Source: Amycolatopsis sp. 2-15 (GTDB taxonomy: Bacteria > Actinomycetota > Actinomycetes > Mycobacteriales > Pseudonocardiaceae). Taken from it: a stretch of 64,000 bases of DNA. The notes under the pieces are model-generated. The model made no database searches and was not told where the DNA came from. It was given only the letters and a program-made list of their open reading frames with translations. The stretch lies in assembly GCF_030285625.1 (NCBI RefSeq), contig NZ_CP127294.1, positions 5,366,501-5,430,500 on the forward strand. The letters run 5' to 3'. Positions 24,758 through 45,823 of the stretch are shown here, in pieces (within the stretch, counting starts at the first letter, position 1; every line of letters starts with the position of its first letter). The position numbers were made by a program, and so were the translations under genes.

Positions 24758-24812
24758 TGGTCGCGGGGCCGGTTTGTGCTGATGGAAAGGGGTGCCCCCG
24801 GGCGGGTTCGGA
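24758..24812 (-). repeat. Degraded attachment-site-like copy of the tRNA-Leu 3' end
   Basis: This stretch aligns almost without gaps with 45717-45771, the downstream flank plus 3' end of the intact tRNA-Leu: GGGGCCGGTTTGTGCTGATG here versus GGGGCCGATTTGTGCTGGTG there, then GGTGCCCCCGG shared exactly and a diverged T-arm. It probably marks an old element boundary next to the SpdB remnant. Confidence 0.55.
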
Positions 24813-24957
24813 CGACATCTACATCAACTGAAATGGCCTCTGAGCTGCGGTTTTCCGCGTTTATGGGCATCGCGAGCTGTCGCCGCACTCGTCGAAGTGA
24901 TTCGGCGCGACGGTCGAGGTGATTCAGGAGCCAGGGTTCGACCACTCGATCGGAGCA

Positions 24958-25654
24958 ATGAAGCAGCCACCCGCGCGTCCGTGGTCACTGTGGATCCAGT
25001 GCGGCGCGACGGGCTTGGTCGCGCTGGGTGCGACTTACGCGTCGTACCAGCACTGCCGCGCGTTTGCTGGCCGATTCGGTGCAGATGCGACGACTGCGTC
25101 GATTTGGCCGTTGATCGTGGACGGTCTGCTGACCCTCGCGACGAGCTCTGGCGGAGCGAGGAAAGGGGCAAACCAGCAAGAGGTCGGGGCCGGCTTGGGC
25201 TGCCTTTCTGTTCGGGATCTCGCTGTCGTTGTGCGCGAACATCGGCTCGGCGCCGTCGCTGAGCGTCTTCGGGGTGACGGTGGCTGCTTGCCCGCCGCTT
25301 GCTCTGTTGCTTGCCGTCGAATTGCTCAACCGTGCGATGAAAGATCACCACGTCAGTCGGGCCGTCGAGATCGGGCCCGGCCTGGCTCAGGCCGAGGGTT
25401 ACCTGCGCCGCATCGAAGAATCGGTCTGCGGCGATGACACCTCGGGAGCGCGTGACGCTCTCACGGCAGAGGAGCGGATGTGGCAGTACTACGTGGAGCA
25501 GGCCGGCAGCGGTCGTGAGCCTTCGAGCGCCGAGCTGGACCGGGTCGCCGGGACCCACAACTACGGCCGTCGTGTGCTACGTCGTTGGAAGGAATCTGGC
25601 CGTACTTCATCGGCGGCTCATCGGCGCCTGATTACCCGGCTCACCCGCGGGTAA
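24958..25654 (+). pseudogene. SpdB-type DUF2637 membrane protein, frameshifted
   Basis: From ATG 24958: MKQPPARPWSLWIQCGATGL, VALGATYASYQHCRAFAGRF, IWPLIVDGLLTLAT. The family then expects ELWRSxERGK, which is found in a second frame, and FLFGISLSLCANIGSAPSLS, which is in a third, so there are two frameshifts at about 25140 and 25200. The third frame runs on through VTVAACPPLALLLAVELLNR to a C-terminal region with EPSSAELDRVAGTHNYGR. DUF2637 proteins belong to conjugative transfer (spread) functions of actinomycete plasmids and integrative elements. Confidence 0.8.
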
Positions 25655-25812
25655 CCGGACCGCAAACGAAAGGGGCCACCGATGCCCGAGGTCAGCCACG
25701 CCTCCGGAACGCGTCGGACACGAATGTCCGCAGCACCGCGAGGGGTGCCACCGCGAGTGAGCGCCCACGACCACTGCGGCCGGGCTGATCGCCGGCCGCC
25801 GAGGAGGGACCG

Positions 25813-26274
25813 ATGATCGAAGTGACCCGCGTGGTCGACGCCCCACCGTCCGCGGTGTTCGCCGTCCTCGCCGACGGCTGGATGTATTCGGGCTGGGTGG
25901 TCGGCAGCTCCCACATTCGGGACGTCGATGCCGCCTGGCCTGCGGTCGGCGCGCGCCTGCATCACAGTGTCGGCGTGTGGCCGTTGCAGCTGGAGGACAC
26001 CACGGTCGTCCTCGCCGTCTCATCGGGGGAATCGCTCCGGCTGGAGGCGCAGGGCTGGCCCTTCGGTACGGCGGATGTCGAGGTGACGCTGACCGCCGAC
26101 GGCGGGTCCGGGGGAGGCACGCTGGTACGCATGCGCGAGCGCGCATTGCGGGGGCCGGGAAAGCTTCTCCCGGAAGCGTTGCAGGCGTTGGTGCTGCGGC
26201 CGCGCAACCGCGAGTCGCTGGCGCGGCTGGCCGCGCTGGCGGAGGGCCGGGCGCGCAAGACCGTCGAGTCGTAG
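25813..26274 (+). CDS. SRPBCC-family protein
   Basis: 153 residues from ATG 25813. The START/polyketide-cyclase fold begins MIEVTRVVDAPPSAVFAVLA and continues with DGWMYSGWVVGSSHIRDVDA, ARLHHSVGVWPLQLEDTTVV and GTLVRMRERALRGPGKLLPE. Such proteins bind hydrophobic ligands in a helix-grip cavity; ligand unknown. Convergent with the FAD oxidoreductase that follows, with which similar proteins are often grouped in actinomycetes. Confidence 0.88.
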   Translation: MIEVTRVVDAPPSAVFAVLADGWMYSGWVVGSSHIRDVDAAWPAVGARLHHSVGVWPLQLEDTTVVLAVSSGESLRLEAQGWPFGTADVEVTLTADGGSGGGTLVRMRERALRGPGKLLPEALQALVLRPRNRESLARLAALAEGRARKTVES

Positions 26275-26336
26275 CTTCCAACCTCGCGCGGGCGCGCCGG
26301 TTCATGAATTCTGAACAGACGCCGCGCGGACGGCTC

Positions 26337-27923
26337 TCAGCCGTACACCGCGCGGTGCGCCGCCTTGATCAGCGTCGCGTAACCCCCACCGAAGATTCCG
26401 TTGCGCGCCAACGCCGCGCGGGCCGCGTTGGCACCCGGTCCGCCGTGGACGGCGCCACCGGGGTGGGCGGAAGCGCCGGCGAGGTAAAGACGGTCCACGG
26501 GGGTGTCGGCGCGGCCCAGGCTGGGCACGGGACGGAAGAAGAGCTGCTGGTGGATCGCGGTGGTGCCGCCGTTGATGGCACCGCCGACGAGGCTCGGGTC
26601 GTGCGCGGCGAGTTCGGCCGGGCCCTGGACGTAGCGAGCCAGGATGCGGTCGCGGAAGCCCGGCGCCTGGCGTTCGATCGAGTCCTCGATGGCTGCCGCC
26701 CGCCGCGACAACGCGGACGGCGTTGCGACCGAACCGCGCGGCACGTGGGTGTAGGCCCATGCCGCTTCGGTCCCCTCTGGTGACCGGGTCGGGTCGGCCG
26801 TGGTCATCTGGCCCAGCAGCAGGAACGGCCGCCGGGGCACGCGGCCGTGGCCGAGTTCGGCGCCGAAGGCGGCCAAGCCGTCCTCGTCGCAGCCCAAGTG
26901 GACGGTCCCGGCACCCGCGGCCTCGTGCGCCGTCCACGGCACCGGGCCGGACAACGCCCAGTCGACCTTCACGGTCGCACTGTCCCACTCGAACCCGTTG
27001 AGATCCTGGAGCAGCCGGGCAGGCAGCCACTCCGGCGCGACCAGCTTTCCGTACAGCGCAGGCGCCGGCACGTCGGCCAGCACCGCCCGCCGGGCGCGGA
27101 TCGCGTCGCCGTCGGCGCACCGCACGCCCACCGCCCGCCCGCCGGCCACGAGGACTTCGTCGACTTCCCGTCCACACTGGACCGAGCCGCGGTCGCCCAG
27201 ACGCTTCACCAACGCCGACACCAGCTCCCCGGCCCCGCCTTCGGGCACCGGGAACCCGACGTCCTGCGCCAGCATCGCCAGCAGCCAGCCGAACACCGCA
27301 CTGCCGGCGTTGTCCACCGACAGGTCGCTGTGCGCGGCGTTGCCCGCCAGCAGCAACCGCGCGCCCGCCCCGGAAAACCGTTCCTCGCTGAACCGGCGGA
27401 CGGGCAACGTCAACATCCGCGCGAGGCGCAGAGCCTCCGCGGTGCCGGTGCGCCGCAGCAACCGGACGGCCGGCCGCACGGGTGGGAACGGCGTGAACAA
27501 CGCGTCGAGCAGTCGGTCGCGCAGGTGCTGCCACTGCGCGAACAACTCCTGCCACGCGTCGCCGTCACCGGCGGAGAACCGGTCCACGGACGCGGCCGTG
27601 CGGTCGACGTCGCGCGACAGCAGGGCGCACCGGTTGTCCGGCAGCACGTGCGCGAGCACGTCGGGCGCGTGCCGCCAGCGCAGGCCGTGGTTTTCCAGTC
27701 CCAGCCCGCGCATGATCGGCGACGCGGCCGACATCGGGAAGAACGCGCTGCAGAGGTCGTTGCGGAAGCCCGGCGCGGTCACCTCGGCGGTGCGCACCGC
27801 ACCACCCGGCGTGTCCGTCGCCTCCAGCACCAGCACGTCCCAGCCGGCATCGGCCAGCAGGTTCGCGGCCACGAGTCCGTTGTGCCCTGCCCCGACCACG
27901 ATCGCGTCGACGGTCTCCACCAC
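26337..27923 (-). CDS. FAD-dependent oxidoreductase, phytoene desaturase-like
   Basis: 528 residues. The dinucleotide-binding motif VDAIVVGAGHNGLVAANLLA is at residues 5-24, followed by LVLEATDTPGGAVRTAEV and FRNDLCSAFFPMSAASPIM. The C-terminal FAD motif is LYLAGASAHPGGAVHGGPGA. This is the CrtI-like group whose actinobacterial members are usually annotated only as NAD(P)/FAD-dependent oxidoreductases. The upstream epimerase gene ends 6 bases before its start, so the two form an operon. Substrate unknown; a lipid or isoprenoid is possible. Confidence 0.9.
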   Translation of the reverse strand: MVETVDAIVVGAGHNGLVAANLLADAGWDVLVLEATDTPGGAVRTAEVTAPGFRNDLCSAFFPMSAASPIMRGLGLENHGLRWRHAPDVLAHVLPDNRCALLSRDVDRTAASVDRFSAGDGDAWQELFAQWQHLRDRLLDALFTPFPPVRPAVRLLRRTGTAEALRLARMLTLPVRRFSEERFSGAGARLLLAGNAAHSDLSVDNAGSAVFGWLLAMLAQDVGFPVPEGGAGELVSALVKRLGDRGSVQCGREVDEVLVAGGRAVGVRCADGDAIRARRAVLADVPAPALYGKLVAPEWLPARLLQDLNGFEWDSATVKVDWALSGPVPWTAHEAAGAGTVHLGCDEDGLAAFGAELGHGRVPRRPFLLLGQMTTADPTRSPEGTEAAWAYTHVPRGSVATPSALSRRAAAIEDSIERQAPGFRDRILARYVQGPAELAAHDPSLVGGAINGGTTAIHQQLFFRPVPSLGRADTPVDRLYLAGASAHPGGAVHGGPGANAARAALARNGIFGGGYATLIKAAHRAVYG

Positions 27924-27929
27924 GCCCCC

Positions 27930-29000
27930 TCACGCCTGCGACTGGTGCGTCGGCCGCCGGCGCGCGAGTGCGCGCACTCGCGCGCGCAAGCCGGTGGCCG
28001 TCCCGGCCAACGGTGGCGACGCCCCGGCCGCTTTGCCGCGCAACCCCTCGACCAGCTCCGCCAGCGTCTCTTCGGTGCTGTGCCGAGGCTGCCACCCCAG
28101 CACGAGCTCCGCACGGGTCGTGTCCACGAGTGCCGCCCGGTCGGCGAGCTCGAGCCATCCGGGGTGCAGCGGCTGCAACCCGGCCGTCCAGGCGAGGCGG
28201 GCCGCGAACCGCGCCACCGGCTTGCCTACCGGCAGGCGCAGGCCGCCGAAGAGCCGTGCGAGGGCGTTGGCGTCCAGCACGTCCGGCGCGGCGAGGTTGA
28301 ACGGTCCGGTCGCGCGCTGCTCCAGGATCAGCCGCACGGCCGAGGCCACGTCGTCGGAGTGCACCGCCTGCACTCGCAAGCCGTTCCACAGCGGGATGGG
28401 CAGCAACCGCCCGCCCAGCAGCCCGGGTGGGATCACCGGGCCCAGCAGCCAGCGCGTGAACTCGCCCGCCGCCGGCCGCTGTAGCACCGCGCACGGCCGG
28501 ATCCGTGCCAGCTCGACTTGCGGGTGTGCCGCGGCGAATGCGTCGAGCACCGTCTCCAGCTCCGCCTTGCCGCGGCTGTAGGCGCTGGCCGGGATCCCCG
28601 TGCGCGGGAAATCTTCAGCCACCTTTTCGCCGCGCGGCCCCGGCCCGTACGCGGCCACCGACGAAGCGCACACCACGTGCCCGACGCCCGCTTTCGCCGC
28701 GGCGTCGAGCACGTGTCGGGTTCCGTCCTCGTTGGTGCGCCACATTGCCGGCTCGCGCCACGCCGGCGAGATCGCCCACGCGAGGTGCACGACCGCGTCC
28801 GCACCGTCGAACTCCAGCGCCAGTGCTTCCTCGGCCCCGGGTTCACCGAGGTCGAGCTGCAGCCAGGACACACCGGAGTACGGCTCGGCGGCGAGGTCGG
28901 GAACGCGCCGCGCGACGCCGGTCACCTCCCACGAGGAGCCCAGCTCGCGCAGCAGCGCCGTCCCGATGTTCCCGCTCGCACCGGTGATCACGATTCGCAC
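27930..29000 (-). CDS. NAD-dependent epimerase/dehydratase (extended SDR)
   Basis: 356 residues. The Rossmann motif MRIVITGASGNIGTALLREL opens the protein; DLGEPGAEEAL and AVVHLAWAISPAW follow, and the catalytic Tyr-Lys appears as SAYSRGK near residues 143-149 with the upstream Ser in CASSVAAYGPG. The C-terminal 60 residues are basic and Ala-rich. First gene of the pair with the FAD oxidoreductase. The sugar or steroid-like substrate cannot be inferred. Confidence 0.9.
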   Translation of the reverse strand: MRIVITGASGNIGTALLRELGSSWEVTGVARRVPDLAAEPYSGVSWLQLDLGEPGAEEALALEFDGADAVVHLAWAISPAWREPAMWRTNEDGTRHVLDAAAKAGVGHVVCASSVAAYGPGPRGEKVAEDFPRTGIPASAYSRGKAELETVLDAFAAAHPQVELARIRPCAVLQRPAAGEFTRWLLGPVIPPGLLGGRLLPIPLWNGLRVQAVHSDDVASAVRLILEQRATGPFNLAAPDVLDANALARLFGGLRLPVGKPVARFAARLAWTAGLQPLHPGWLELADRAALVDTTRAELVLGWQPRHSTEETLAELVEGLRGKAAGASPPLAGTATGLRARVRALARRRPTHQSQA

Positions 29001-29218
29001 TTTCCAGAACTACCCCGGTACAGAACACGGTAACCCGGTCATCGGGTCCTCGGTTTCGTCGTCGGCGGAACATCCTCATCGCTGACGGCCCGCACCTACC
29101 CGCTCCGGCCGTCGGTAAACCCGTGCTTGAAAAAATCGATGGTTGATGACGCCCGGTGCGGGTATGCCACGCGCCGAGCGCAGCCGACAGCACCGTTTTC
29201 CGGATCGAGGTGGCGGCG

Positions 29219-29536
29219 ATGGACTCAACGGTTCCGGGCGGGCGGAGGACCGTCTCAGCGCGGAACGCGGCTCGACGTCTCCGAGCGACCGAACGTCAGT
29301 TGAAAGCCACGGACGCGGTCTGGGTGCGGCGGACCTTCGGTGAGGTCGCGTGGCCCCTGGGTCGCGGCTGGTTGGCGGTGAACTTCGCCTTGGACGTCAT
29401 CGCGCTGGCGCTGATCCTGTTCGGCGTGCTCGTGGTGTTACCGGTGGCCTTCGCGGGATTCGTCCTGGGCAACATCGCCGTCTGCATGCACCTCGAACGC
29501 CAGAGCCGGAGCGAGGGCAATATGAGAAATCGGTGA
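29219..29536 (+). CDS. Small two-helix membrane protein of unknown function
   Basis: 105 residues from ATG 29219, preceded by AGGTGG. A basic N-terminal half (RRTVSARNAARRLRATERQL) is followed by two hydrophobic stretches: GWLAVNFALDVIALALILFG and VLVVLPVAFAGFVLGNIAVC. The short charged tail contains LERQSRSEGN. I do not recognise a family. Upstream start codons exist (29156) but lack a ribosome binding site. Confidence 0.55.
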   Translation: MDSTVPGGRRTVSARNAARRLRATERQLKATDAVWVRRTFGEVAWPLGRGWLAVNFALDVIALALILFGVLVVLPVAFAGFVLGNIAVCMHLERQSRSEGNMRNR

Positions 29537-29871
29537 CCCGCCGCCTGGTTGACGAAATTCTCACCCATTCGCTCCGTGGTCGCGAATGTGTGACACGCGC
29601 TCTTGAGCGTGGCCCGATCAGTCTCCTGGTGGTGGGGGTGGGGGCATGATCTCGATGCCGATCTGGCGTCGGAAGGGTTCGGCTGTGTTTCGCCGGTGGC
29701 CGGCTCGAGACAGGAGTTCTTGAAGTCGACAGACGGCACGCGTGCGCGCAGGCCGGGCAGGTCACCGAGGGTGGTCCACAGGATTGAGCTTCAGGATGCG
29801 GAGGGCCGTGTGCGGGCTCGGTGGTCCGAGGCTGCCGGCTGTGACAGGTCACTGTGATCGGATCGTCGGGT
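29537..29871. other. Gap without a supported gene
   Basis: Between the small membrane protein and the TerC-linked peptide there is a G-rich stretch (GTGGTGGGGGTGGGGGC near 29628-29645) but no frame with convincing codon use, and no strong hairpin was found. Confidence 0.5.
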
Positions 29872-29997: not shown

Positions 29998-30000
29998 GGC

Positions 30001-31143
30001 TTAGTCCTGTCGGTTGTCAGCCGGGCTGTCACTCGCGTCTCGAGGGACGTCGGGCGTGTGTTCGCGGGCCTGCATGTCGGTGTGCCCGTTGGTGTGGTTG
30101 GCGGGTTCGGGCGTGCGGTGGGGTGTTCGGAGGCTGGTGGCGGTGACGGTGGCCAGGATGAGGACGATGACCGCCAAGGAGATCGGGGTGGGGATCTGCG
30201 GCACGGAAGGCCAGACGCCGTGTGCCCAGTGCAAGACCAGTTTCACCCCGATGAACGCGAGGATGATGGCGAGGCCGTGGTTGAGGTGGCGGAGTTTCGC
30301 CAGCGCGGTGTGCAGCACGAAGTACAGGGCGCGCAGACCGAGCAAGGCGAAGGCGTTGGTGGCGAACACCAAATAGGGATCTTCGGTGATGCCATAGACC
30401 GCGGGCACCGAGTCGACCGCGAACACCACGTCAGTGGTGAACACGGCCACCACCACGACCACCAACGGGGTGTACACCCGTTTCCCATGCTCACGCACGG
30501 ACAACCGGGCTCCCCTGTAGTCATCGGTGATCGAGACGAACCTGCGCAGCAGCCGCACTGATCGCATCCGCGAGGTATCCGGCTCGGCATCCGCACCGGT
30601 CAGCGCCTGGTGCAGGATCTTCACCGCCGACGCGAAGAGGACCAGCCCGAACACGAGGAACGCCCAGGTTCCCGCCGCCAGCAGTGCGGCGCCGGCCGCG
30701 ATGAACACACCCCGCAATACCAGCGCGCCCACAATGCCGTAAAGCAACACCCGCTGCTGCAGCGCGGGTGGGACCACGAACGCGGCCAGCAGCAGCATGA
30801 ACACGAACAGGTTGTCCACCGACAGGGACTTCTCGACGACGAAGCCGGTCAGGAACTCCACCCCCTGCGCGCCCCCGAACGCTGCCCACAGCCAGGCGCC
30901 GAACACCACCGGCAACGTCAGGTAGAACGCTGACCAGCCAACGGCCTCTCGCATGGACACTTCGTGGGGACGCCGCGTCATCATGAAGTCAGCGACCAGC
31001 AACACCACCAGGACCGCGATGCTGATCAGCCACAACCACGGGGACCCCACCGACTCCGTCGGAGCCGCCACCACGACCTCCGCAGAAGCTGGCGGGGCTG
31101 CCGCCGTTGCGGCGGCCGGGTCGGCGATGGACAAGGCGGGCAT
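30001..31143 (-). CDS. TerC/Alx-family membrane transporter
   Basis: 380 residues from ATG 31143, decided by GAGGAGG five bases upstream. The family signature EKSLSVDNLFVFMLLLAAF carries the conserved acidic and Asn residues within a membrane helix, and FTTDVVFAVDSVPAVYGITE the second acidic pair; FATNAFALLGLRALYFVL follows. Nine or so membrane segments and a His/Pro-rich cytoplasmic tail. TerC/Alx proteins are now mainly viewed as manganese exporters, some linked to tellurite resistance or metallation of exported enzymes. A candidate manganese riboswitch lies in the leader. Confidence 0.92.
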   Translation of the reverse strand: MPALSIADPAAATAAAPPASAEVVVAAPTESVGSPWLWLISIAVLVVLLVADFMMTRRPHEVSMREAVGWSAFYLTLPVVFGAWLWAAFGGAQGVEFLTGFVVEKSLSVDNLFVFMLLLAAFVVPPALQQRVLLYGIVGALVLRGVFIAAGAALLAAGTWAFLVFGLVLFASAVKILHQALTGADAEPDTSRMRSVRLLRRFVSITDDYRGARLSVREHGKRVYTPLVVVVVAVFTTDVVFAVDSVPAVYGITEDPYLVFATNAFALLGLRALYFVLHTALAKLRHLNHGLAIILAFIGVKLVLHWAHGVWPSVPQIPTPISLAVIVLILATVTATSLRTPHRTPEPANHTNGHTDMQAREHTPDVPRDASDSPADNRQD

Positions 31144-31159
31144 CAGGACCTCCTCGAAC

Positions 31160-31300
31160 GAGCGCGCACACTGGCGCATGTTCGAGGTCTCCTTCACCCG
31201 GTACACCGACACTCGTGGCGCCGACGTCGGGCGGACTCCCGGGGACATCAACGGGATGTCCGTATTGACCGGGCAAACCCTGCGGAAGTACTCCCCTCGC
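31160..31300 (-). promoter_or_regulatory. Candidate yybP-ykoY (manganese) riboswitch in the terC leader
   Basis: On the minus strand the leader contains GAGGGGAGTACTTCCGCAGG, matching the GGGGAGUA start typical of this riboswitch, followed by GC-rich pairing segments (GGACATCCCGTTGATGTCC is a near-perfect hairpin) and CCGCCCGACGTCGG about 20 bases upstream of the TerC ribosome binding site. Gene context (TerC) fits well. The full consensus was not aligned. Confidence 0.45.
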
Positions 31301-31322
31301 AGCCAGTATCGCTCCGTGCCCG

Positions 31323-31500: not shown

Positions 31501-31507
31501 CTCGGTG

Positions 31508-31879: not shown

Positions 31880-31887
31880 ACGAGGCG

Positions 31888-32872: not shown

Positions 32873-33164
32873 GTGGGCCAATTGGTAGCTCGGCTAAAAG
32901 TCGTGGACGGGCCCTGCGCTCGATCGGCGGTTGAGTTCGCACGGCCAGCGGCAATGCCGAACGGGTCTCGTCGATTTCACCGTATTGTTTGGTTTGCCGT
33001 CTTTGACGGTGGCAGGTGCTCGTCTGACCCTGTTCTGACGGCGAGCCGTAACCCGCTGGCCATCCCTTTACTCCGCCAGTGCAATCACGCGTTCGGTGCC
33101 GCGCCGTCTTGGGGTTGTTTAGTTCCCGGAGTCCCCTCCGAACATTTGTTCTGTGAAAGGATCG

Positions 33165-35946: not shown

Positions 35947-36690
35947 TTTCCGCAGTGTGCCAGATGTCTCGCCTCGCGAGGCGGCACTCGAAGCGGCGGC
36001 GCGAGACGATCGACGCCCCCGGCAAAGGAAGGCGATCGAACGTACCGTGTGTGATTGTTCTGGTGAGGTACGTCGTAGGCCCGACGTGTCCCGACCCGCC
36101 AATCTCGCCGCGACGGCGTCAGCAGCGTGCTCACGCGCCCCAACCCCTCGGGAGCGCTGCAGAGCATCGGCGTCTCCCAGGCCTTGAGCGCCGCCGCACG
36201 CACCGAAGCCGGCCGCATCTCGCGCTCACCGGCGAGCCACCGCGGAGGATCTCCACCGGCGTGTTCGGCCGCCACAGTGTGACTGAATACCGCCCGGTGC
36301 ACCCCAACTTGGTCGTGGAGATCCACGCCGAAAGCTTTGTCCTGGCCTTCATCAACCGGCCTGGCCCCGAGTGCACCGCGTGCGCCTCCCGGTGCACCCC
36401 AACTTGGTCGTGGAGATCCACGCCGAAAGCTTTGTCCTGGCCTTCATCAACCGGCCTGGCCCCGAGTGCACCGCGTGCGCCTCGACCTCACTCCGGACGA
36501 CGTCGAAACCCGAGGGCGACGCATTCGCGTGACCGAACCCGCTGCGCAGCCCGCACATCACCGCGGCGCAGCTGCTGCCGACTTCCGTCATTAGCCTTCC
36601 AGGACAACGGCATGACGGCACCTCCTTGCCGGTGGGTAGCGCCCAAAGGCGTCTTCCCATTCTCGAGGCCCAGCCGGCTAGCGTCGGAAC
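35947..36690. other. Gene-poor stretch with a tandem duplication
   Basis: No frame is convincing across this stretch. Around the 95-bp tandem repeat (36293-36483) one frame reads VHPNLVVEIHAESFV and another HRVRLDLTPDDVE, which together recall the OB-domain end of ATP-dependent DNA ligases, but the match is short and I rate it as weak. Confidence 0.35.
36293..36483 (+). repeat. Tandem duplication of a 95-bp unit
   Basis: Two head-to-tail copies, each running from CCCGGTGCACCCCAACTTGG to GTGCACCGCGTGCGCCTC, with starts at 36293 and 36388. No differences between copies were noticed. The unit length is not a multiple of three, so any gene across it would be frameshifted. Confidence 0.9.
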
Positions 36691-37175
36691 CGGAGAAGAC
36701 CAGGAGCGGAGCAACTCGAACGGGCCTCTGAGGGCCTCGCCAAGAAGCAGGAGTCCGTGCTGAGGCAAGGCGATGGACGGAGACCCAGACGACGCGTTCA
36801 CGAAGGCGCTACGTGGCCGCTACAACGATCTTGAGGCCCAGAGACAGGGCTTGGTCTCGAAGCTGGCCGCGCTTAGCGAGGCGGCCACACAGATGTCGGA
36901 CAGGCCGGATGCGGAAGCGGTGTCGCTGCTCGACGCCCTCCCGTGCCTCGCCGTGAACCTCGCCGGCGCTCCGGAAGATCTCCTCCGGGCACTCTTCGAG
37001 GTGGTTCAGCTCCACATCCAGGTCCACGACGAAGGTGAACGTGCGACACTGACGATCACGTTGCCCGCGGATCAGCTGACGGACGTCGCGGGCACAGCAA
37101 AGAGGATTTACGACCAGGTGGAGCCCAAGCAAGGTCCGGCAGTAAGGCCGGGACCACTTGTGGGGTTCTGGACTG
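36690..37175 (+). pseudogene. C-terminal fragment of a large serine recombinase
   Basis: One frame carries AEQLERASEGLAKKQESVLR; after a frameshift near 36770 the protein continues from ATG 36773 as GDPDDAFTKALRGRYNDLEA, then QRQGLVSKLAAL, LLDALPCLAVNLAGAPEDLL and TLTITLPADQLTDVAGTAKR. This is the coiled-coil and C-terminal region of actinobacterial large serine integrases. The catalytic domain is missing. Its frame runs straight into the tRNA-like sequence at 37176, as integrase genes next to tRNA attachment sites often do. Confidence 0.75.
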
Positions 37176-37213
37176 TGCCCCCGGTGAGATTCGAACTCAC
37201 ACTGGACGGGTTT
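37176..37213 (-). repeat. Attachment-site copy of the tRNA-Leu 3' half (38 bp identical)
   Basis: Thirty-eight bases are identical to 45750-45787 of the intact tRNA-Leu: acceptor 3' strand, T-arm (GATTCGAAC) and variable region up to the anticodon stem. After 37213 the sequences differ, so this is half a tRNA and not a functional gene. Its place at the end of the recombinase fragment marks it as an attL/attR-type site. Confidence 0.85.
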
Positions 37214-37375
37214 CGAAACCGGCCCGGAAACCCCGGATGACCTGCACAGATGGCCTTGTCGGCCTGAGTTGGGGGCATATTGGGGGTGGCAGGTCGTTCG
37301 AGCACGCGTTGGCTGGGCCGAACGGGTGGTCAACGAGAGGCGAGCCGTCTGCGAGGGTCGGTACTGTCGGTGCCT

Positions 37376-38013: not shown

Positions 38014-41000
38014 ATGGGGACAGGCAGGGCCCTGCCTGCCCGGGATCCGCCCGACGCGGTCCTTCTGCAGCAGAGCGCGCGCACTCGGGTGACCCGCGTG
38101 TCCCTGCCGGGGGGCGTCGCCGTCGTCTGCAAGGAGCCGCTCGGGCCGGACGCGCAGCGGCGTTTGCGGCACGAGGTGGCGATCCTGGAGCGGCTGCGCG
38201 GTGTCGACGGTGTTGCGCAACTGGTGGACGCGCCGCGGTACCCGGGATCGATCGTGCTGGTGGACGCCGGTGACACCACCCTGGCCGGGCCGACAGAGCC
38301 ACTGGCCGTCGATGAGGTGATCCGGCTGGCCGGCAAGCTGGCCCAAGCGGTCGCGGGAATGCACCGCCGCGGAGTGCTGCACCGCGACATCACCCCCGCC
38401 AACATCGTCGTCTCCGGGGACGGGGACCCGTGCCTGGTGGATTTCGCGTTGGCCATGTCCGTTTCCGAGATCCGTCCCGAGTTCGCCCACCACAGCGAAA
38501 TCGTCGGGACGCTCGCCTACCTCGCCCCCGAGCAGACCGGGCGCACCGGCCGGTCGGTGGACCAGCGCGCGGACCTGTACGCGTTGGGCGCGACGCTCTA
38601 CGAGCTGGCCACAGGCCGGCCGCCGTTTGGCACCGGTGACCCGCTGCGCCTGACCCACGATCACCTGGCACGAGTGCCGGTACCGCCGGCCCGGCTGAAC
38701 CCGGCGGTGCCCGGTCTGCTGTCCGAGATCGTGATGCGTCTGTTGGAGAAGGAGCCCGACCACCGCTACCAGTCCGCCGAGGGCCTGGCCCACGACCTGC
38801 ACCAGGTCCGCGACGTCCAGGCCCATCCGGCGGCTCGGGTGCACATCGGCGAGCACGACGTTCCGCAGCGGCTGCTGCCACCCTCACGGCTGGTGGGACG
38901 CGATGCCGAGGTGACAGCGCTAGAGGCGGCGTTCGAGGAGGCGCTGGCCGGCCGCTGTCAGGGTGTGCTGGTCGGTGGGGCGCCGGGGGTGGGCAAGACC
39001 GCGTTGGTCGATCAGCTGCGGCCGGTGGTGACGGGCCGGGACGGCTGGTTCGTGGCCGGCAAGTTCGACCAGTACCGGCGGGATGTCGAGTTCAACGCGG
39101 GTTTTCAGGCGTTCCGGGCGTTGGGTCGGCTGTTGCTGGCCGAGCCGGAGGATGTGCTCGCCGCTATTCGTGAACGGATCGTCGATTCGGTCGGGGCGAC
39201 CGCGGGTCTGTTGAGCGCGGTGGTGCCGGAGTTCGCGGTGCTGCTGGGGGTGCCGCCGGATGCGGGGGATCCGTTGACCGCGCAGGCGCGCACGCAGCAA
39301 GCAGGTGTGCAGGGACTGCGGGCGGTCGCGTCGCGGACCCGGCCGGTGGTGGTGTTCCTCGATGACTTGCAGTGGGGTGGGCGCACCCCGCTCGGCTTCG
39401 TCGATCTCGTGCTGTCCGAGGAACCGGTCGAAGGCCTGTTGCTGGTCGGCGCCTATCGTGACGTGGAAGTGGACTCGGCGCATGCCCTGACCGCGCTGCT
39501 GTCGCGGTGGCGCGAGCAGGTCGGCGTGCGCTGGCTGGGGTTGGACAATTTGGCGGTGCCGAGCCTGGTCACCATGATGGCGGAGACGCTGCACGCGGAT
39601 CGCGCCACCGTGGCTGGACTGGCCGAGATGATCAGCGAGCGCACGTCCGGCAACCCGTACGAGACGGTGGAGCTGCTCAACGCGCTGCACAGGGAGAGGG
39701 TGCTGGCGGCGACCGCCGTCGGGTGGCGGTGGGACGACGCGGCGGTGCGGGCTCGGCTGGGCCGGTCCGAGGTGGCAGGGCTGCTGGCGGCGCGGGTCGC
39801 GGCGATGCCGCCGTCCTCGCGGGCGCTGGTCGAGGCGATGGCGTGTCTGGGCGGGCGAGCCGAGGTGAGTCTGCTGCAGATCGCCACCGCCACAGAGGCG
39901 GGCGTGGTGGACCAGCAGTTGGCGCCCGCTCTCGACGAGGGTGTCCTGGTGGTCGAGCCGGGACCGCAGGAGGCCGTGCGGTTTCGCCACGACCGCACCC
40001 GTGAGGTCATCCTGAGTGGGCTGGAGCCTCTGCGGCGAAGTGCCCTGCAGCTGGCGATCGCGCGGCGACTGGCCGGGGTGCCGGAGCTGTTCGCGGTGGC
40101 GGCCGAGCAGTACCTGCCGGTGATCGACGCCGTCGTCGAGGCGGCGGAGCGCCGGCTGGTGGTGGGGCTGCTGCGCCGCGCCGCCGACCAAGCGGCGTTG
40201 ATCGGCGAGTACACGCCGGTGAACGCGCTGCTGGTCGCCGCGCTGCGGCTGATCGGCCCGGGGGAGACTGCCACGCTGATCCAGGTGCACATCGGCCGCC
40301 ACGCCGCCCTGTACAGCCTCGGGCGACTGGACGAGGCGGACGCGGAGTACCACACGATCGAGCGGCTGTGTCCCAGCACGATCCGACGCGCCGACGCGAC
40401 AGCGGTGCAGGTGCGCAGCCTGACCCACCGCAAACGCTTCACAGAGGCGATCGATCTGGGCCTGAAGTCGCTGCGCGCGTGCGGCATCACGATCCCGGCC
40501 GCCGACCAGCTCGCCGCCGATCTCGACCACCAGTACGAGTACCTGTACCGGTGGCTGGAAACCGACACCGCCGAGGATCTGGTTCGGCCGGAGATCACCG
40601 ACCCCACGCTGCTCGCTGCGACCCGCCTGCTCGACGCGACCCTGCCGCCGGTCTCTTTCCTCTCCGACCACACCAGGCTCGCCTGGCTGAGCCTGGAAGC
40701 CCTGCGGATCTGGCTCGAGCACGGGCCCGGACGTACCCTGGTCTGCCCCGCCTGCTTCGCCTCTTACTACGCTGTGGTACAGCGCGGCGACAGCGCCGGA
40801 TATCGGGCGTTGGGGCGGCTCCTGGCGTGGGGCGAAGCCCGCGGCTATGAGCCCGAGACCTCGTACGCGCACTACTACTTCGCCATCCTCAGTTGCTGGT
40901 TCGAGCCCCTCGAAAACGGTCTCCACGCCATGCTGCGTGCCCGCGAGGGGCTGATCGCAGGTGGCGACCTGGCGTACGCCGGCTACACCTATCACTCGAT

Positions 41001-43026
41001 CGAGTACTTCTTGCTCGACTGCCCGCCAACCCTCGACCACCTCGTCGAGCAGCTGGAGGCGGGCGTCGCCTTTGCACGGCGCACCGGCAACGAACAGATC
41101 GGCCAGGTGCTCGACGGTCACCGATGGCTGGCCGGTGTGCTGTGTGGCGGAAGCTCGGACGCGATTGGTACGGCGGATCCCACCGACAGGTACGCCGACA
41201 ATCCGATGGCGCTTTTGTACGCGCATCTCAGCCGGGCGCTCGCCGCCGCCGTCTTCGGCGATCCATCCGGCTTGGCACAGCACACCGCGGCGGCGATGCC
41301 GCTACTACCGGCCGTCCTGGGCCACTACTCGACCGCCGTGGCCCGCCTGCTGCGTGGGTTGGCCCTGGCCGGGCAAGCCCGCAACACGGCCGGTGACGAG
41401 CGCGCCGCTCTGCTGGCCGAGCTGGACGAGACGACGCGGTGGCTGGCTGCACGTGCCGCAGCCGTGCCGGACAACTTCCTGCATCTGCAGCGGTGGCTGG
41501 AGGCCGAGCGGGCGTGGGTGGTGGGGGATTACCGGGCCGCCGAGCTGGCGTTCGACGCCGCCCGCCGCGAGGTCGCCGGCCGTGCGCGGCCCTGGCACCG
41601 GGCGTTGATCACCGAACGCGCAGCCCGCTTCTATCTGGCCCACGGCCTGGACCGCGTCGGTGGTGAGCTGCTCGCCCAGGCCCGCCAGACCTATGCCGCC
41701 TGGGGTGCGAGCGCGAAGGTCGACCAACTCGACTGGGCCTACCCCAGACTGCGGCCACACTCCGACGCGACCACTGGGCTGAGCGGAGACCAGCCCGCTC
41801 ATCTGTCGCAGCAAACGGGCCCGGTCACCACCGGCACCCTGGACCTGCTGGGCATCCTGGCCGCCTCTCAGGCACTGAGCTCCGAGACCAGCATCGAACG
41901 CCTGCGCACCCGAGTCGTCGAGGTCCTCAGCGCGCTGACCGGCGCCACCGGTGTGCAGCTGCTGCTGTGGAACCCCGAACGCGACGACTGGCTGCTCCCC
42001 GCTCCCGACAGCGACACCGGCACCACCCAGTTCCAAGACATCACTCAGATCGCACGCACCGCCCCGAGCGCCGCCGGGGAACCCATGGTCCCGCTGTCTG
42101 TGCTGCGCTATGTCCAACGCCTCGGCGAATCGGTGCTGGTCGCCGACGCCACCGAGGACGACCGCTTCGCCCGTGACCCCTACTTCTCCGACCTCGACCG
42201 CTGCTCCCTCCTGGCCGTGCCCATCCTCAGCCGCGGCAGCCTGCGGGCGGTGTTGCTGCTGGAGAACCGGCTCATCCGCGCCGCGTTCACTGCCGGGCGG
42301 CTCGACGCGGTCAGCCTCATCGCCGGGCAACTGGCTGTGTCGCTGGACAACGCGCAGCTCTACGCCGAGCTGACCACCTCACGCGCCCGCGTCGTCACCA
42401 CCGCCGACCAGGCCCGCCGGCGCATCGAGCGCGATCTTCACGACGGCGCGCAACAACGGCTGGTCTCCCTCGCTCTCCACGCCCGCACGGCACAAGCATC
42501 AGCACCTCTCGACGCCAGTGAGCTCCGGGCCCAGCTGGACAACCTCGCCACCGAAGCCATCACCGCACTCGACGAACTGCGCGAGCTCGCCCGCGGCATC
42601 CACCCGGCCATCCTCGCCGACGGCGGGCTGCAATCCGCGCTCAAAGCCCTGGCCCGCCGCTCGTCGGTCCCGGTCGAGCTGGACGTGACCATCCCGCGGC
42701 GGCTACCCGAACAACTCGAGATCGCCGCCTACTACCTGGTCGCCGAAGCCCTGACCAACACAGCCAAACACGCGCACGCCACCACCATCGGCGTCACGGT
42801 CGACACCACCGACCAGGAGACCGGCGACGTCCTACGCGTCTGCGTCTGCGATGACGGGCGCGGCGGCGCCGACCTCACCCGCGGCACCGGCCTCGTCGGA
42901 CTCAAAGACCGGGCCGAAGCACTCGGCGGCCGACTGGTGGTGCACAGCGCCCCCGGCGCAGGCACCACCCTGCATGCCGAACTCCCGCTGTCACACGCCC
43001 ACAAGGCCCGGGACCCCCGAAGATGA
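38014..43026 (+). CDS. Giant hybrid kinase: Ser/Thr kinase - AAA ATPase - GAF - histidine kinase
   Basis: 1670 residues. The Ser/Thr kinase domain (about 1-275) has K40 in VAVVCKE, catalytic D125 in HRDITPANIV and a changed metal motif DFA (D143; normally DFG), then GTLAYLAPEQTGRTGR. The AAA/STAND-type ATPase (about 295-640) has K328 in GGAPGVGKTALV and D450-D451 in VVVFLDDLQW. A long helical, TPR-like region follows (about 700-1250). The GAF domain (about 1290-1430) precedes a HisKA_3 with H1476 in RDLHDGAQQRLVSLAL and an HATPase_c with EALTNTAKHAHA and VCDDGRGGADLTRGTGLVGL. Probably cytosolic. No response regulator lies beside it. It sits between two attachment-site-like repeats, so it may be integrated cargo. 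Confidence 0.92.
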   Translation: MGTGRALPARDPPDAVLLQQSARTRVTRVSLPGGVAVVCKEPLGPDAQRRLRHEVAILERLRGVDGVAQLVDAPRYPGSIVLVDAGDTTLAGPTEPLAVDEVIRLAGKLAQAVAGMHRRGVLHRDITPANIVVSGDGDPCLVDFALAMSVSEIRPEFAHHSEIVGTLAYLAPEQTGRTGRSVDQRADLYALGATLYELATGRPPFGTGDPLRLTHDHLARVPVPPARLNPAVPGLLSEIVMRLLEKEPDHRYQSAEGLAHDLHQVRDVQAHPAARVHIGEHDVPQRLLPPSRLVGRDAEVTALEAAFEEALAGRCQGVLVGGAPGVGKTALVDQLRPVVTGRDGWFVAGKFDQYRRDVEFNAGFQAFRALGRLLLAEPEDVLAAIRERIVDSVGATAGLLSAVVPEFAVLLGVPPDAGDPLTAQARTQQAGVQGLRAVASRTRPVVVFLDDLQWGGRTPLGFVDLVLSEEPVEGLLLVGAYRDVEVDSAHALTALLSRWREQVGVRWLGLDNLAVPSLVTMMAETLHADRATVAGLAEMISERTSGNPYETVELLNALHRERVLAATAVGWRWDDAAVRARLGRSEVAGLLAARVAAMPPSSRALVEAMACLGGRAEVSLLQIATATEAGVVDQQLAPALDEGVLVVEPGPQEAVRFRHDRTREVILSGLEPLRRSALQLAIARRLAGVPELFAVAAEQYLPVIDAVVEAAERRLVVGLLRRAADQAALIGEYTPVNALLVAALRLIGPGETATLIQVHIGRHAALYSLGRLDEADAEYHTIERLCPSTIRRADATAVQVRSLTHRKRFTEAIDLGLKSLRACGITIPAADQLAADLDHQYEYLYRWLETDTAEDLVRPEITDPTLLAATRLLDATLPPVSFLSDHTRLAWLSLEALRIWLEHGPGRTLVCPACFASYYAVVQRGDSAGYRALGRLLAWGEARGYEPETSYAHYYFAILSCWFEPLENGLHAMLRAREGLIAGGDLAYAGYTYHSIEYFLLDCPPTLDHLVEQLEAGVAFARRTGNEQIGQVLDGHRWLAGVLCGGSSDAIGTADPTDRYADNPMALLYAHLSRALAAAVFGDPSGLAQHTAAAMPLLPAVLGHYSTAVARLLRGLALAGQARNTAGDERAALLAELDETTRWLAARAAAVPDNFLHLQRWLEAERAWVVGDYRAAELAFDAARREVAGRARPWHRALITERAARFYLAHGLDRVGGELLAQARQTYAAWGASAKVDQLDWAYPRLRPHSDATTGLSGDQPAHLSQQTGPVTTGTLDLLGILAASQALSSETSIERLRTRVVEVLSALTGATGVQLLLWNPERDDWLLPAPDSDTGTTQFQDITQIARTAPSAAGEPMVPLSVLRYVQRLGESVLVADATEDDRFARDPYFSDLDRCSLLAVPILSRGSLRAVLLLENRLIRAAFTAGRLDAVSLIAGQLAVSLDNAQLYAELTTSRARVVTTADQARRRIERDLHDGAQQRLVSLALHARTAQASAPLDASELRAQLDNLATEAITALDELRELARGIHPAILADGGLQSALKALARRSSVPVELDVTIPRRLPEQLEIAAYYLVAEALTNTAKHAHATTIGVTVDTTDQETGDVLRVCVCDDGRGGADLTRGTGLVGLKDRAEALGGRLVVHSAPGAGTTLHAELPLSHAHKARDPRR

Positions 43027-43383: not shown

Positions 43384-43485
43384 GCGCTAGCCGTTCTCGC
43401 CGCGACAAACGTGGACCGCGAAACACCGCGCACAGCCGTACATTGCCGGGCGGCTCCCCGCGCTGCCGGACGACACAAGATCTGA

Positions 43486-43514
43486 CCCCTGACCAGGTAC
43501 CTCCTGGTCAGGGG
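43486..43514 (+). terminator. 12-bp perfect hairpin before the degraded attachment site
   Basis: CCCCTGACCAGG and CCTGGTCAGGGG flank a 5-base loop. A diverged counterpart (CCCATGACCGG ... CCTGGTCAGGGG) precedes the intact tRNA-Leu site at 45699-45725, so the hairpin belongs to the repeated element end rather than to one gene. Confidence 0.65.
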
Positions 43515-43536
43515 CCATTTTCTGCTGGCGACGCCT

Positions 43537-43578
43537 GGTGCTCCGGAGAGATTTCGAACTCTCACTGGACGGGTTTCG
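43537..43578 (-). repeat. Second degraded copy of the tRNA-Leu 3' end
   Basis: GGTGCTCCGGAGAGATTTCG then AACTCTCACTGGACGGGTTT matches the tRNA-Leu flank and 3' half with scattered changes. CACTGGACGGGTTT is exact. The T-arm substitutions partly compensate each other (GAGAG/CTCTC), as in a different or once-selected tRNA end. Confidence 0.65.
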
Positions 43579-43589
43579 GGTGCCAGCGG

Positions 43590-44576
43590 TCAGTGGATCT
43601 GGTCCGCGGCCATTCGGGCGAAGCGGTCGGTGGCGGCGATGATCGCTGCGGTCATGCTGTCGCCGCCGTGGCCGGTGTCGTCGAGCACGACGAGCTCGCT
43701 TCCGGGCCAGGCCCGGTGCAGCGCCCAGGCTGTGCCGAGTGGACCGCTGACGTCGTAACGCCCGTGGATCAGCACGGCCGGAATCCCGTGGAGCCGCTCG
43801 ATGTCACGCAGAATCTGCCCCTCGTCGAGAAAGCAGCCGTGGGACCAGTAGTGGGTCACGATACGGGCGATGGCCAGCTGAAATGCCGGGTCGGCGACCG
43901 ATAGGGACGGTGCGGCGTCGGGGGCCAGCGACATGTGCGTGTCCTCCCACTCGCACCACCCGCGGGCGGCCTTGGCCCGGACCTCGGGGTCGGGATCGTG
44001 GAGCAGCCGGCTGTAGGCGGCTGAGAGGTCGCCGTCGCGTTCGGCGGCGGGTACGCCGTCGCGAAACCGTTCCCACTCGCGCGGGAAAACGCGGCCCATG
44101 TCACGAGTGATCCAGTCAGTCTCGCTGCGGTTGCCGTTGGTCACGGCCGCGAGCACCAATTCGGTCACCCGCTCCGGGTAGGCCTGCGCGTAGGCGAGAG
44201 CGAGGGTGACGCCCCACGAGCCACCTTCTACCAGCCAGCGATCGATTCCCAGGTGAACGCGCAGCGCCTCGATGTCGGCGACAAGGTGCTGGGTGGTGTT
44301 GGCCGACAGGTCGACGACCGGGTCGGTCGCCGAAGGGGTGCTGCGCCCGCAGTTGCGCTGGTCGAACACGACCACGCGGTAGCGGTTCGGGTCGAACAGG
44401 CTCCGGTATCGCGGAGAGCTCCCCGAACCGGGACCGCCGTGCAGCGCGACGGCCGGCTTGCCGTTGGGGTTGCCCGACACCTCCCAATACAGCGAATGGC
44501 CGTCGCCGACCGCCAGCATGCCTGACTCGTGCGGCTCGATCGATGGATATCGCCCGTCGTCGGATGTACTCGCCAT
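43590..44576 (-). CDS. pip: Proline iminopeptidase
   Basis: 328 residues from ATG 44576. Alpha/beta-hydrolase fold (peptidase S33): HGGPGSGSSPRYRSLFDPNR carries the oxyanion-hole HGGPG, VVFDQRNCGRS follows, the nucleophile Ser is in VEGGSWGVTLALAYAQAYPE, the acid in IHGRYDVSGPL and the catalytic His in LDDTGHGGDSM. Length and motifs match bacterial Pip enzymes, which remove N-terminal proline from peptides in the cytoplasm. It lies between two attachment-like repeats with an unrelated acetyltransferase. Confidence 0.93.
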   Translation of the reverse strand: MASTSDDGRYPSIEPHESGMLAVGDGHSLYWEVSGNPNGKPAVALHGGPGSGSSPRYRSLFDPNRYRVVVFDQRNCGRSTPSATDPVVDLSANTTQHLVADIEALRVHLGIDRWLVEGGSWGVTLALAYAQAYPERVTELVLAAVTNGNRSETDWITRDMGRVFPREWERFRDGVPAAERDGDLSAAYSRLLHDPDPEVRAKAARGWCEWEDTHMSLAPDAAPSLSVADPAFQLAIARIVTHYWSHGCFLDEGQILRDIERLHGIPAVLIHGRYDVSGPLGTAWALHRAWPGSELVVLDDTGHGGDSMTAAIIAATDRFARMAADQIH

Positions 44577-44824
44577 ACAGGCATGATCGCGCGCCGGTGC
44601 CCGACGAGACTAAGCGGCCCACACCAGCAGAAACGTGAAGCACCGTTCGTCGTCACGGACGGGCTACCCCCGCACGCGCGGAGTCCCGTCGGCGGCTGGT
44701 TCACAGTTCGTGCGGGTCGAACCGCACCTCCCACTTCGCTGCCTGCGCTGGCGGATCGTGAGGCCGTCTTCCACCAGCGGCGACGGGACTACGGAACACC
44801 CCTCCGGTCGTCGCGGTTGGCGGA

Positions 44825-45292
44825 TTAGGTCAGTGCGCACCGCAGGACGATCTCGCCGTCGTCGATCTCGCCGGTCGGCTGGAAGCCGAAGCCCCGGTAG
44901 AACGGCCACGGTTCTCCCTTTCCAGGTTGGTAACTGGTGAACAGTTCGGTGCCGCCGTCCGCCCTGACCAGTTCGATGACCTTGGCAAGCGTGGCGCGCC
45001 CGTAGCCGCGGTGCTGGAACTCCGCTCCGACAAGCAGCCGCCACAGGACGTATGAGCCGACCACGCCGCGCGTACCTGGCGGCACCGCCCAGTTCAGCAT
45101 GACGAAACCGACAGGCACGTCGTCCGCGTACACAGCGCGGTACCAGGGCGACAAGTGTGGTTTCTTGCGTGCGTCCTTCAGCGACTTCTTCACCGAAGCG
45201 ACGAACTTCTTCTGGTCCGGCCGGACACGTACGGCGCACACCGCGTCGCGGTTGTCGTCGGTGATCTCACGCAGTTCGACGTGTTCGGTCAC
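44825..45292 (-). CDS. GNAT-family N-acetyltransferase
   Basis: 155 residues from GTG 45292 (VTEHVELREITDDNRDAVCA). The acetyl-CoA loop is near residues 98-110 in VGAEFQHRGYGRATLAKVIE (QHRGYG), preceded by VGSYVLWRLLVG and followed by PWPFYRGFGFQPTGEIDDGE, the typical end of SpeG/BltD-like enzymes. Small-molecule substrate, perhaps a polyamine, is only a guess. The longer frame upstream to 45688 is low-complexity and antisense to nothing real; the GTG fits the domain start. Confidence 0.85.
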   Translation of the reverse strand: MTEHVELREITDDNRDAVCAVRVRPDQKKFVASVKKSLKDARKKPHLSPWYRAVYADDVPVGFVMLNWAVPPGTRGVVGSYVLWRLLVGAEFQHRGYGRATLAKVIELVRADGGTELFTSYQPGKGEPWPFYRGFGFQPTGEIDDGEIVLRCALT

Positions 45293-45299
45293 CTGGCCA

Positions 45300-45590
45300 T
45301 TATCGGCCCGGGACCCGCCAGTCCTCCCACCCGACATTCCCCATGCGAGGAAGGGTGAACGTACGACGTATCGGTTGCACATCGAGGTCGTTCGTCTTCG
45401 CGCCGCCGACGGCGACGGCGACGGCGATGGTGGCGGTGGCGAGCACGGCCGAGCCGATGGTGATGACCAGCATGGTCGTGTCGCCGTCGAGGTGCCAGCA
45501 GGCGAGCGCGGCGATACCGACGAGTGCGAGGACGGTGAGGTACCCCGAGAGCGCCTGCCAGCGCCTTCCAGTAGGGGCCGGGCGCGGACC
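45300..45590 (-). CDS. Small membrane protein, 5' end unclear
   Basis: The frame ends at 45300, 8 bases before the GNAT start. It contains two membrane segments, ALSGYLTVLALVGIAALACW and MLVITIGSAVLATATIAVAV, and a tail LPRMGNVGWEDWRVPGR. It stays open to 45701 but that part overlaps the repeated attachment-site flank, so the true 5' end has probably been replaced. Family not recognised. Confidence 0.45.
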   Translation of the reverse strand, partial: GPRPAPTGRRWQALSGYLTVLALVGIAALACWHLDGDTTMLVITIGSAVLATATIAVAVAVGGAKTNDLDVQPIRRTFTLPRMGNVGWEDWRVPGR

Positions 45591-45746
45591 GCGCTTCCCG
45601 GGCCTACCGGCCGAGGACGATGTAGACCGCGAATAGACCGCGCGCAGCCGTACTTTGCCGGTCGCCGTCGCGCGCCACCGGTTGACACAAGATCGGCCCA
45701 TGACCGGATTGCACCTGGTCAGGGGCCGATTTGTGCTGGTGGGCCT

Positions 45747-45823
45747 TGGTGCCCCCGGTGAGATTCGAACTCACACTGGACGGGTTTTGAATCCGTTGCC
45801 TCTGCCAGTTGGGCTACGGGGGC
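45747..45823 (-). tRNA. tRNA-Leu(CAA)
   Basis: On the minus strand the acceptor GCCCCCG pairs with CGGGGGC, followed by an encoded ACCA end. The D-arm is GCCC...GAGGC, the anticodon arm ACGGA-TTCAAAA-CCCGT gives anticodon CAA with one weak closing pair, and the T-arm is GTGAG-TTCGAAT-CTCAC. The variable loop is only 5 bases, short for tRNA-Leu, so the identity rests on the anticodon. The 3' half recurs at 37176-37213 and in degraded form at 43537 and 24758, marking it as an integration site. Confidence 0.85.

Follow-up and report, generated by a model that had tools for sequence, protein, structure and literature searches.

In a soil actinobacterium of the genus Amycolatopsis, the 3′ end of a tRNA-Leu(CAA) gene has very probably served as the attachment site (att) for a succession of integrative elements with unrelated integrases, which left their ends stacked on one side of the gene. 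The gene lies in a stretch of 64,000 nucleotides (the window), bases 5,366,501-5,430,500 of the complete 10.05 Mb chromosome of one member of this genus (G000), and was the sole tRNA gene found in it by ARAGORN. An initial annotation had proposed repeated integration and tandem accretion at this tRNA, and this proposal is borne out by copies of the tRNA 3′ half, element ends, integrase tails and variation on one side of the gene. Our genus sample comprised 80 Amycolatopsis genomes, G000 included (G numbers); further comparisons used separate loci (L numbers). Because genomes G015, G052, G014 and G023 recur as loci L083, L090, L091 and L102, cross-genus gene counts that mix both kinds of rows are upper bounds.

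Three copies of the tRNA 3′ half, referred to by their positions as 24.8, 37.2 and 43.5 kb, are present where they had been claimed, all in the same orientation (Table 1). Formal alignment to the tRNA region gave identities of 39/39 (37.2 kb), 79% (43.5 kb) and 75% (24.8 kb). The perfect identity described for the 37.2 kb copy was confirmed, over 39 instead of 38 bases. The 43.5 kb copy was correctly located and longer than described, with a match at 43459-43576 that takes in the 3′ flank and an inverted repeat (E 6e-22 in a scan of 145.7 kb); a similar match had an E value of 1.5e-17 across the whole 10.05 Mb genome. The 24.8 kb copy, absent from the whole-genome match list, is weak alone and draws its support from the motif spacing and a nearby integrase tail. 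As a control, we scored tiles from the rest of the window with one common probe: none of 1,644 tile-strand scores exceeded 19, compared to 28, 43 and 55 for the copies at 24.8, 37.2 and 43.5 kb, all of which are thus above chance. Together with the motif spacing, this control ruled out chance similarity and unrelated tRNA pseudogenes as the source of the copies. Further tRNA-like matches near -93.8 kb are, in our judgement, probably ordinary tRNA genes.

Two short motifs mark element ends beside these copies. Within the window, motif A (TGGGGGNNTATTGGGGG) has just two occurrences, at 24668 (one mismatch) and 37270 (mean in shuffled sequence, 0.00). Motif B (AGCCGTACNTTGCCGG) is confined to 43434 and 45646; with up to two mismatches allowed, shuffled sequences gave a mean of 0.12, and one of 100 shuffles held two matches. 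In a scan of 224 loci (3.42 Mb, counting overlaps), exact motif A appeared in nine rows representing eight distinct places, of which seven lie no more than 400 nt from a tRNA-Leu-like att, at a fixed offset. Exact motif B gave six rows from four distinct places: the tRNA and the 43.5 kb copy of the window and the tRNA of G055, all with the same offset, and an integrase end in G055 that has lost its att. Motif A lies 124-125 nt from the att of right ends and 95-96 nt from that of left ends, motif B 103-104 nt from the att of right ends. Both motifs are putative arm-binding sites of the integrases. Motif types and alignments together identify 24.8 kb as a right and 37.2 kb as a left type-A end, while 43.5 kb and the live tRNA carry type-B right ends. 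The end at the live tRNA is shared, wholly or partly, by G055 and G059. We also considered 37.2 and 43.5 kb as a pair bounding one element, but rejected this because their arms are of different types.

Table 1. Element ends, relics and genes around the tRNA-Leu(CAA) gene (window coordinates)
Feature	Position	Strand	Remarks
tRNA-Leu(CAA), integration target	45747-45823	-	ARAGORN; 3′ end points left
Right end of type-B tyrosine-integrase element at live tRNA	45600-45746	+	motif B 45646-45661, inverted repeat
Degraded att copy with type-B right-end flank	43459-43578	+	43459-43576 vs 45671-45787, 79% over 119 columns
Motif B at 43.5 kb copy	43434-43449		type-B right end
Type-B tyrosine integrase, C-terminal 47 codons	43240-43380	+	95.7% to intact 531-aa (amino acid) enzyme of G055
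Left end of type-A tyrosine element	37214-37290	+	motif A 37270-37286, 95 nt from att
Intact att copy	37175-37213	+	39/39 identical to 45749-45787; E 5e-14 (145.7 kb scan)
Large serine recombinase, broken tail with stop	36650-37165	+	abuts 37.2 kb copy; frame continues into att
DUF2637 (SpdB-like) gene relic, two pieces	24985-25618	+	tblastn to L102
Degraded att copy	24757-24813	+	75% over 57 columns; E 4e-6 (145.7 kb scan)
Type-A right end at 24.8 kb copy, motif A (one mismatch)	24668-24684		124 nt from att
ISL3-family transposase	23663-24646	+	inside 24.8 kb right-end relic
Type-A tyrosine integrase, C-terminal 34 codons	23377-23478	+	71% to G024
Fragment of 529-aa type-A element gene	23002-23391	+	70% to G024; no Pfam family
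Response regulator with ANTAR domain	45995-46606	+	conserved right neighbour (genus comparison)
GNAT acetyltransferase segment of tRNA-proximal remnant	44745-45688	-	PF00583; open reading frame (ORF) 44825-45688
Prolyl aminopeptidase	43590-44576	-	TIGR01249, 327 bits; between 43.5 kb att and GNAT
1,670-aa kinase	38014-43026	+	Pkinase, AAA_16, GAF, HisKA_3, HATPase_c
Phosphoesterase	33153-35891	+	closest match elsewhere in G059 (among the matches listed)
TerC family protein	30001-31251	-	closest G059 match elsewhere (among the matches listed)
Polyketide cyclase-like, amine oxidase, epimerase block	25616-29037		relocated vs G059 and G055

The relics of element genes that had been reported near the copies, namely a tyrosine and a serine recombinase tail and pieces of a DUF2637 (SpdB-like) gene, were all found; a second, type-A tyrosine integrase tail had not been mentioned. 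Flanks homologous to the serine recombinase tail abut the tRNA in G061, G002, G042, G048 and G049. The 36.7-37.2 kb flank, common to a group of 11 genomes, had been a candidate for the native flank of an empty site. We dropped this reading because the corresponding flank beside the tRNA of G061, G049 and L102 belongs to a serine recombinase, the assignment in G061 being based on the likeness of its translated sequence to protein P0006. The two DUF2637 pieces became visible by tblastn only, since the ORFs of the window at this place have no Pfam match. A. keratiniphila, G052 and G048 likewise have a DUF2637-related gene close to the tRNA. The relic lies ~12.2 kb left of the 37.2 kb att, and its counterpart in G048 ~12.0 kb left of the tRNA in the same orientation; with different DNA in between, this spacing possibly reflects one serine-element skeleton. 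Beside the oldest relic, the window (21249-22874) encodes a 541-aa protein with a DpdA match (PF23859, 53.9 bits).

Fuller elements are found in relatives. In G024, the type-A element encodes Prim-Pol (PF09250), FtsK/SpoIIIE (PF01580) and excisionase-like HTH_17 proteins, all above cut-off, and an integrase that remains below it (Phage_integrase, 23.6 bits versus 27.1). This gene set resembles that of an actinomycete integrative and conjugative element (AICE). A tblastn search of the window with six G024 proteins did not recover such a set; matches were confined to the integrase tail and a portion of the 529-aa protein. The type-B element of G055 encodes a TrwC relaxase and a type IV secretion system coupling protein, both above cut-off, next to the 531-aa integrase, which has no Pfam match; a 46-nt att copy lies 21.6 kb from the tRNA. 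This set, expected for an integrative and conjugative or mobilizable element with TrwC, was likewise not found in the window by tblastn with three G055 proteins, of which only the integrase tail matched. Relatives of the serine element are present in A. keratiniphila (L102) and A. eburnea (L081). Their recombinases at tRNA-Leu (688 and 687 aa, unbroken frames through the tRNA) contain Resolvase, Recombinase and zinc-ribbon domains, the latter above cut-off in L081 only (31.5 bits; L102, 24.2 versus a cut-off of 25.3).

Taken together, these data support five recognisable element ends of three integrase types (type-A tyrosine, type-B tyrosine and serine). Five such ends imply at least four integrations, if the type-B ends arose by duplication, and most simply five. 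There are thus more layers than in the initial annotation, which had proposed at least two or three elements. One could also envisage a single composite island that extends from the 24.8 or 37.2 kb att to the tRNA and whose internal repeats are duplications of its own end. Duplication could indeed explain the pair of type-B right ends, which match at 79% over 119 columns. But a single island does not account for three different integrase tails, nor for a left end at 37.2 kb between right ends at 24.8 and 43.5 kb. Moreover, G055 carries the equivalent of the 43.5 kb end beside an unbroken integrase frame and a relaxase gene, apart from its tRNA-proximal end. The mixed ends largely refute the single island, which we regard as very improbable.

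The same tRNA is a hot spot throughout the genus. On its right side, the tRNA-Leu gene adjoins the ANTAR gene in 74 of 80 genomes. The exceptions are G004, G062 and G072, with the two genes on different contigs, and G046, G058 and G068, where ~90-320 kb of the same contig lie in between, as if rearrangements had ended at the tRNA. The linkage is old: in 76 of 80 loci, ranging from Amycolatopsis to Mycobacterium, Nocardia and Thermobifida, tRNA-Leu(CAA) is located at most 3 kb upstream of the ANTAR gene. Further to the right, the segments 52.3-55.5 and ~59.8-64.0 kb stay close to the tRNA (at most 20 kb away) in eight of ten genomes, whereas in G002 and G049 they are 0.45 and 0.68 Mb from it. 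On the 3′ side, we compared the flanks of 34 genomes (33 besides G000; three with less than 9 kb of flank). Grouping by the last 4 kb, with more than 250 nt in common near the same distance within 1.5 kb as a link, resulted in 19 groups, 16 of them single genomes. The commonest gene was a tyrosine integrase, in six genomes, and no gene occurred in more. A cross-genus listing contained 12 rows with a tyrosine integrase and seven with a serine recombinase, G000 being in both; its ORF picking overlooked the serine recombinase of G023. At least 10 of the 80 genomes (among those listed: G000, G013, G020, G024, G028, G034, G038, G051, G055 and G076) have another copy of the tRNA 3′ part no more than 35 kb away on the 3′ side, with contig and strand the same. 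Variation thus begins at the tRNA 3′ end and is one-sided. None of the 33 other genomes compared beside the tRNA carries 24.8-45.7 kb as ordinary conserved chromosome.

A conserved left neighbour was sought across genera and found mainly within Nocardia and within Mycobacterium; none is common to most Amycolatopsis loci. Pyruvate kinase, a candidate left neighbour suggested by Streptomyces, was searched in the 80 genomes and proved a false lead, its gene being at 9.07 Mb here. The CCA end is encoded by the tRNA gene of the window (45747-45749), and for 26 of the 34 genomes the BLAST match begins one or two bases further on. An element may thus have supplied the CCA here, alignment end effects being the other option. 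To the right, a sequence of ~950 bases (55547-56497) has seven listed copies at 90% in G059 and is probably an insertion sequence (IS).

Based on the ends and their types, we infer the following order of events. Each newcomer would recombine inside the tRNA gene and bring a new 3′ half, thereby shifting the older 3′ half and the integrase end of the previous element to the left. The stack would then be oldest at its left: the right end of a type-A tyrosine AICE (att 24.8 kb), followed by a serine-recombinase element ending at the 37.2 kb att, a second type-A element of which the left end remains at the same att, and an element of the type-B, TrwC-relaxase kind with its right end at 43.5 kb. 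The youngest layer would consist of another type-B right end and the GNAT segment at the live tRNA. Deletions presumably removed nearly all integration and transfer genes, and ordinary chromosomal genes may have come to lie between the ends.

The genes between the ends had been named as possible cargo. For most of them this was not borne out. Among the matches listed, the closest relatives of the kinase lie elsewhere in G059 and in G055, and in G059, the closest relative, the kinase (96% identity), amine oxidase/epimerase pair (94%), phosphoesterase (94%), TerC (85%) and prolyl aminopeptidase (Pip, 89%) are found at 8.82, 8.59, 8.13, 10.31 and 2.42 Mb, respectively, with the tRNA at 10.72 Mb. 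In this genome-wide search the best three candidates per genome were scored, so that a missing match has little weight. The kinase loci of G059 and G055 have no common flank in 20 kb; the gene exists as diverged copies with differing surroundings in G000, G055 and G059. In G059 and G055 alike, the amine oxidase block has retained its context on the right; some of this context is located at 5.93 Mb in G000, ~540 kb away, which indicates that the block moved in the genome of the window. The aminopeptidase gene is absent from its G059 locus in G000, where the flanks meet within 15 bases. The separate G059 loci, the amine oxidase context and the aminopeptidase locus speak against a reading of the intervening genes as true cargo carried in by the elements, which we consider improbable. 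In its favour, the GNAT segment lies beside the tRNA in three species (G000, G055 and G059), and the amine oxidase/epimerase pair is near the tRNA also in G002 (~11 kb), G068 (~31 kb) and G076 (~37 kb). Of the cargo originally named, only GNAT is shared beside the tRNA, and G055 has a second copy of this segment (44744-45310, 90%) ~45 kb left of its tRNA. Genes between att relics need not be mobile cargo.

The comparison with G059 also changes the extent of the region. Common to G059 and the window are the tRNA side (45657-46868, 95%) and, at 84%, the GNAT segment. Left of GNAT, it has a stretch like the 24.8 kb right end without the tRNA part, followed by unrelated DNA; it lacks 24.8-44.7 kb at the tRNA and has other sequence there instead. 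A common stretch of 31.8 kb (95%) is found 40.9-72.6 kb from the tRNA in G059 versus 93-125 kb in G000, and further patches at 25-29 kb versus ~80-90 kb. The variable zone thus comprises ~80-93 kb here versus 25-41 kb in G059 and extends to the left beyond the window; the ~21 kb proposed initially are too small. In G055, the 31.8-kb stretch does not occur within ~139 kb of the tRNA but at 5.5 Mb. Among the matches listed, none from another genome covers more than ~5.2 kb of 24.8-45.7 kb.

Such scatter raises the question of whether the left side is a chromosomal rearrangement zone, scrambled by inversions and IS, with the att relics as incidental passengers. Several observations agree with this: the scattered closest matches of the intervening genes in G059 (among those listed), the parting of tRNA and ANTAR gene in six of 80 genomes (on another contig in three), the ISL3 transposase within the 24.8 kb relic, and a sequence at 29036-29614 that is repeated elsewhere in the genome. 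However, the variation is one-sided from the tRNA 3′ end, and integrases and a few element genes recur there, so that rearrangement accounts for the cargo and not for the ends. The fixed spacing of the ends refutes it as the sole process, in which role it is very improbable; as a second process, nothing refutes it. IS activity could, as a guess, have brought chromosomal genes in between the ends. The repeat at 29036-29614 is present wholly or partly at two further places in G000 (93-95%) and starts where the amine oxidase/epimerase block ends. G059 has a tRNA-Leu att copy (L177:9461-9502; G059 9540460-9540501) with 98% identity over 42 nt at ~1.2 Mb from its tRNA-Leu, with only a tRNA-Pro in the surrounding 20 kb and a right flank like the left end of G055, which suggests rearrangement through the island. 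Fragments of the DpdA-like protein recur in G059 at ~3 kb from an orphan tRNA-Leu att copy.

Some observations do not fit successive integration easily, or limit how far it can be taken. Integration alone does not explain the scrambled gene order left of the tRNA, where G000 and G055 share only three matches of at least 150 bases in ~139 kb. One motif-A place (G028) has no att nearby. Both motifs were drawn from alignments that contained the window sites, so that only other loci provide an independent test; for motif B this is a single tRNA site, that of G055. The stretch from 37.2 to 43.5 kb combines a type-A left end with a type-B right end and, given this mismatch, is a fusion instead of one element. 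No left end was recognised for either the serine or the tRNA-proximal element, and the 43.5 kb copy is more decayed than that at 37.2 kb, yet expected to be younger. Finally, a strictly empty site was not found in any genome examined.

A side result that can be tested directly concerns serine recombinase frames that run into tRNA genes. The frame in A. keratiniphila (L102:7841-9907) crosses the entire tRNA-Leu gene in antisense. Searching 249 genomes of the order in six frames (E 1e-80) gave 21 rows from 16 genomes, representing 20 distinct places (L200-L220). According to ARAGORN and the coordinates, a tRNA overlaps the 3′ part of the recombinase frame in 13 of these places (Leu-CAA, 6; Arg-CCG, 3; Glu-CTC, 2; Leu-TAA and Arg-CCT, 1 each) and in seven there is none; L219 is a broken copy with an overlap of 13 bases. 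The frame ends inside the tRNA in some places and beyond it in others. An antisense T-arm-type peptide was found in the last 140 residues of 71 of the best 120 of 524 homologs, compared to 1/120 in the rest of the protein and 0/2,400 control windows, with a motif list compiled after the sequences had been seen. Two reading frames occur. By inspection of the protein sequences, the last 13 residues of P0001-P0004 would be the translation of the 39-nt att, with the TGA of the anticodon loop as stop. In the window, the recombinase frame enters the 37.2 kb att; beyond the 39-nt core the sequence is different, and the frame stays open until a later stop. A literature search, largely of titles and abstract openings, returned no description of a serine integrase frame reading through a tRNA among the papers listed. 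One may speculate that an actinobacterial clade of large serine integrases is specialised on tRNA 3′ ends, its att overlapping the 3′ end of the integrase gene, so that the antisense tRNA encodes the last residues and sometimes the stop. Integrated and excised elements would then encode different protein tails, which might act as a built-in switch, and a later tyrosine element in the same tRNA would rewrite the tail, as at 37.2 kb. We regard this scenario as rather unlikely.

The findings point to the use of one tRNA 3′ end by tyrosine as well as serine integrases. They also amount to a readable stratigraphy of integration at one tRNA, in which ends can be separated by motifs at fixed spacing after most genes have been lost. 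For Amycolatopsis elements at tRNA-Leu, our literature search, limited to partial texts, gave nothing beyond Ghinet et al. (2011; PMC3218068). In Klebsiella, asparagine tDNAs are reported as hot spots with tandem accretion (PMC4891358); as here, tRNA genes attract different islands, although host, tRNA and elements differ. The filamentous phage phiRSM1, cited in PMC3218068 as integrating in tRNA-Ser, likewise combines a serine recombinase with a tRNA 3′ end, but is a phage of an unrelated host. Closer parallels are the tandem AICEs Fean5518/Fean5534 in tRNA-Lys and Sav3708/Sav3728 in tRNA-Arg, the integrases of the latter pair belonging to two sub-families (PMC3218068). They too are stacked at one actinobacterial tRNA, but represent recognisable elements under tyrosine integrases, whereas the window retains ends only and a serine recombinase at the site. 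The same source describes AICEs of Mycobacterium with serine recombinases in one tRNA-Leu gene and terms serine-mediated integration into tRNA genes rare. These AICEs resemble our case in having a serine recombinase at tRNA-Leu and differ from it in that the host here is Amycolatopsis and tyrosine elements share the site. The kind of system is therefore known, and the window is a well-marked example of it with an unusual mixture of integrases; of interest are its legible layers, a site common to tyrosine and serine enzymes, and the recombinases that enter the tRNA.

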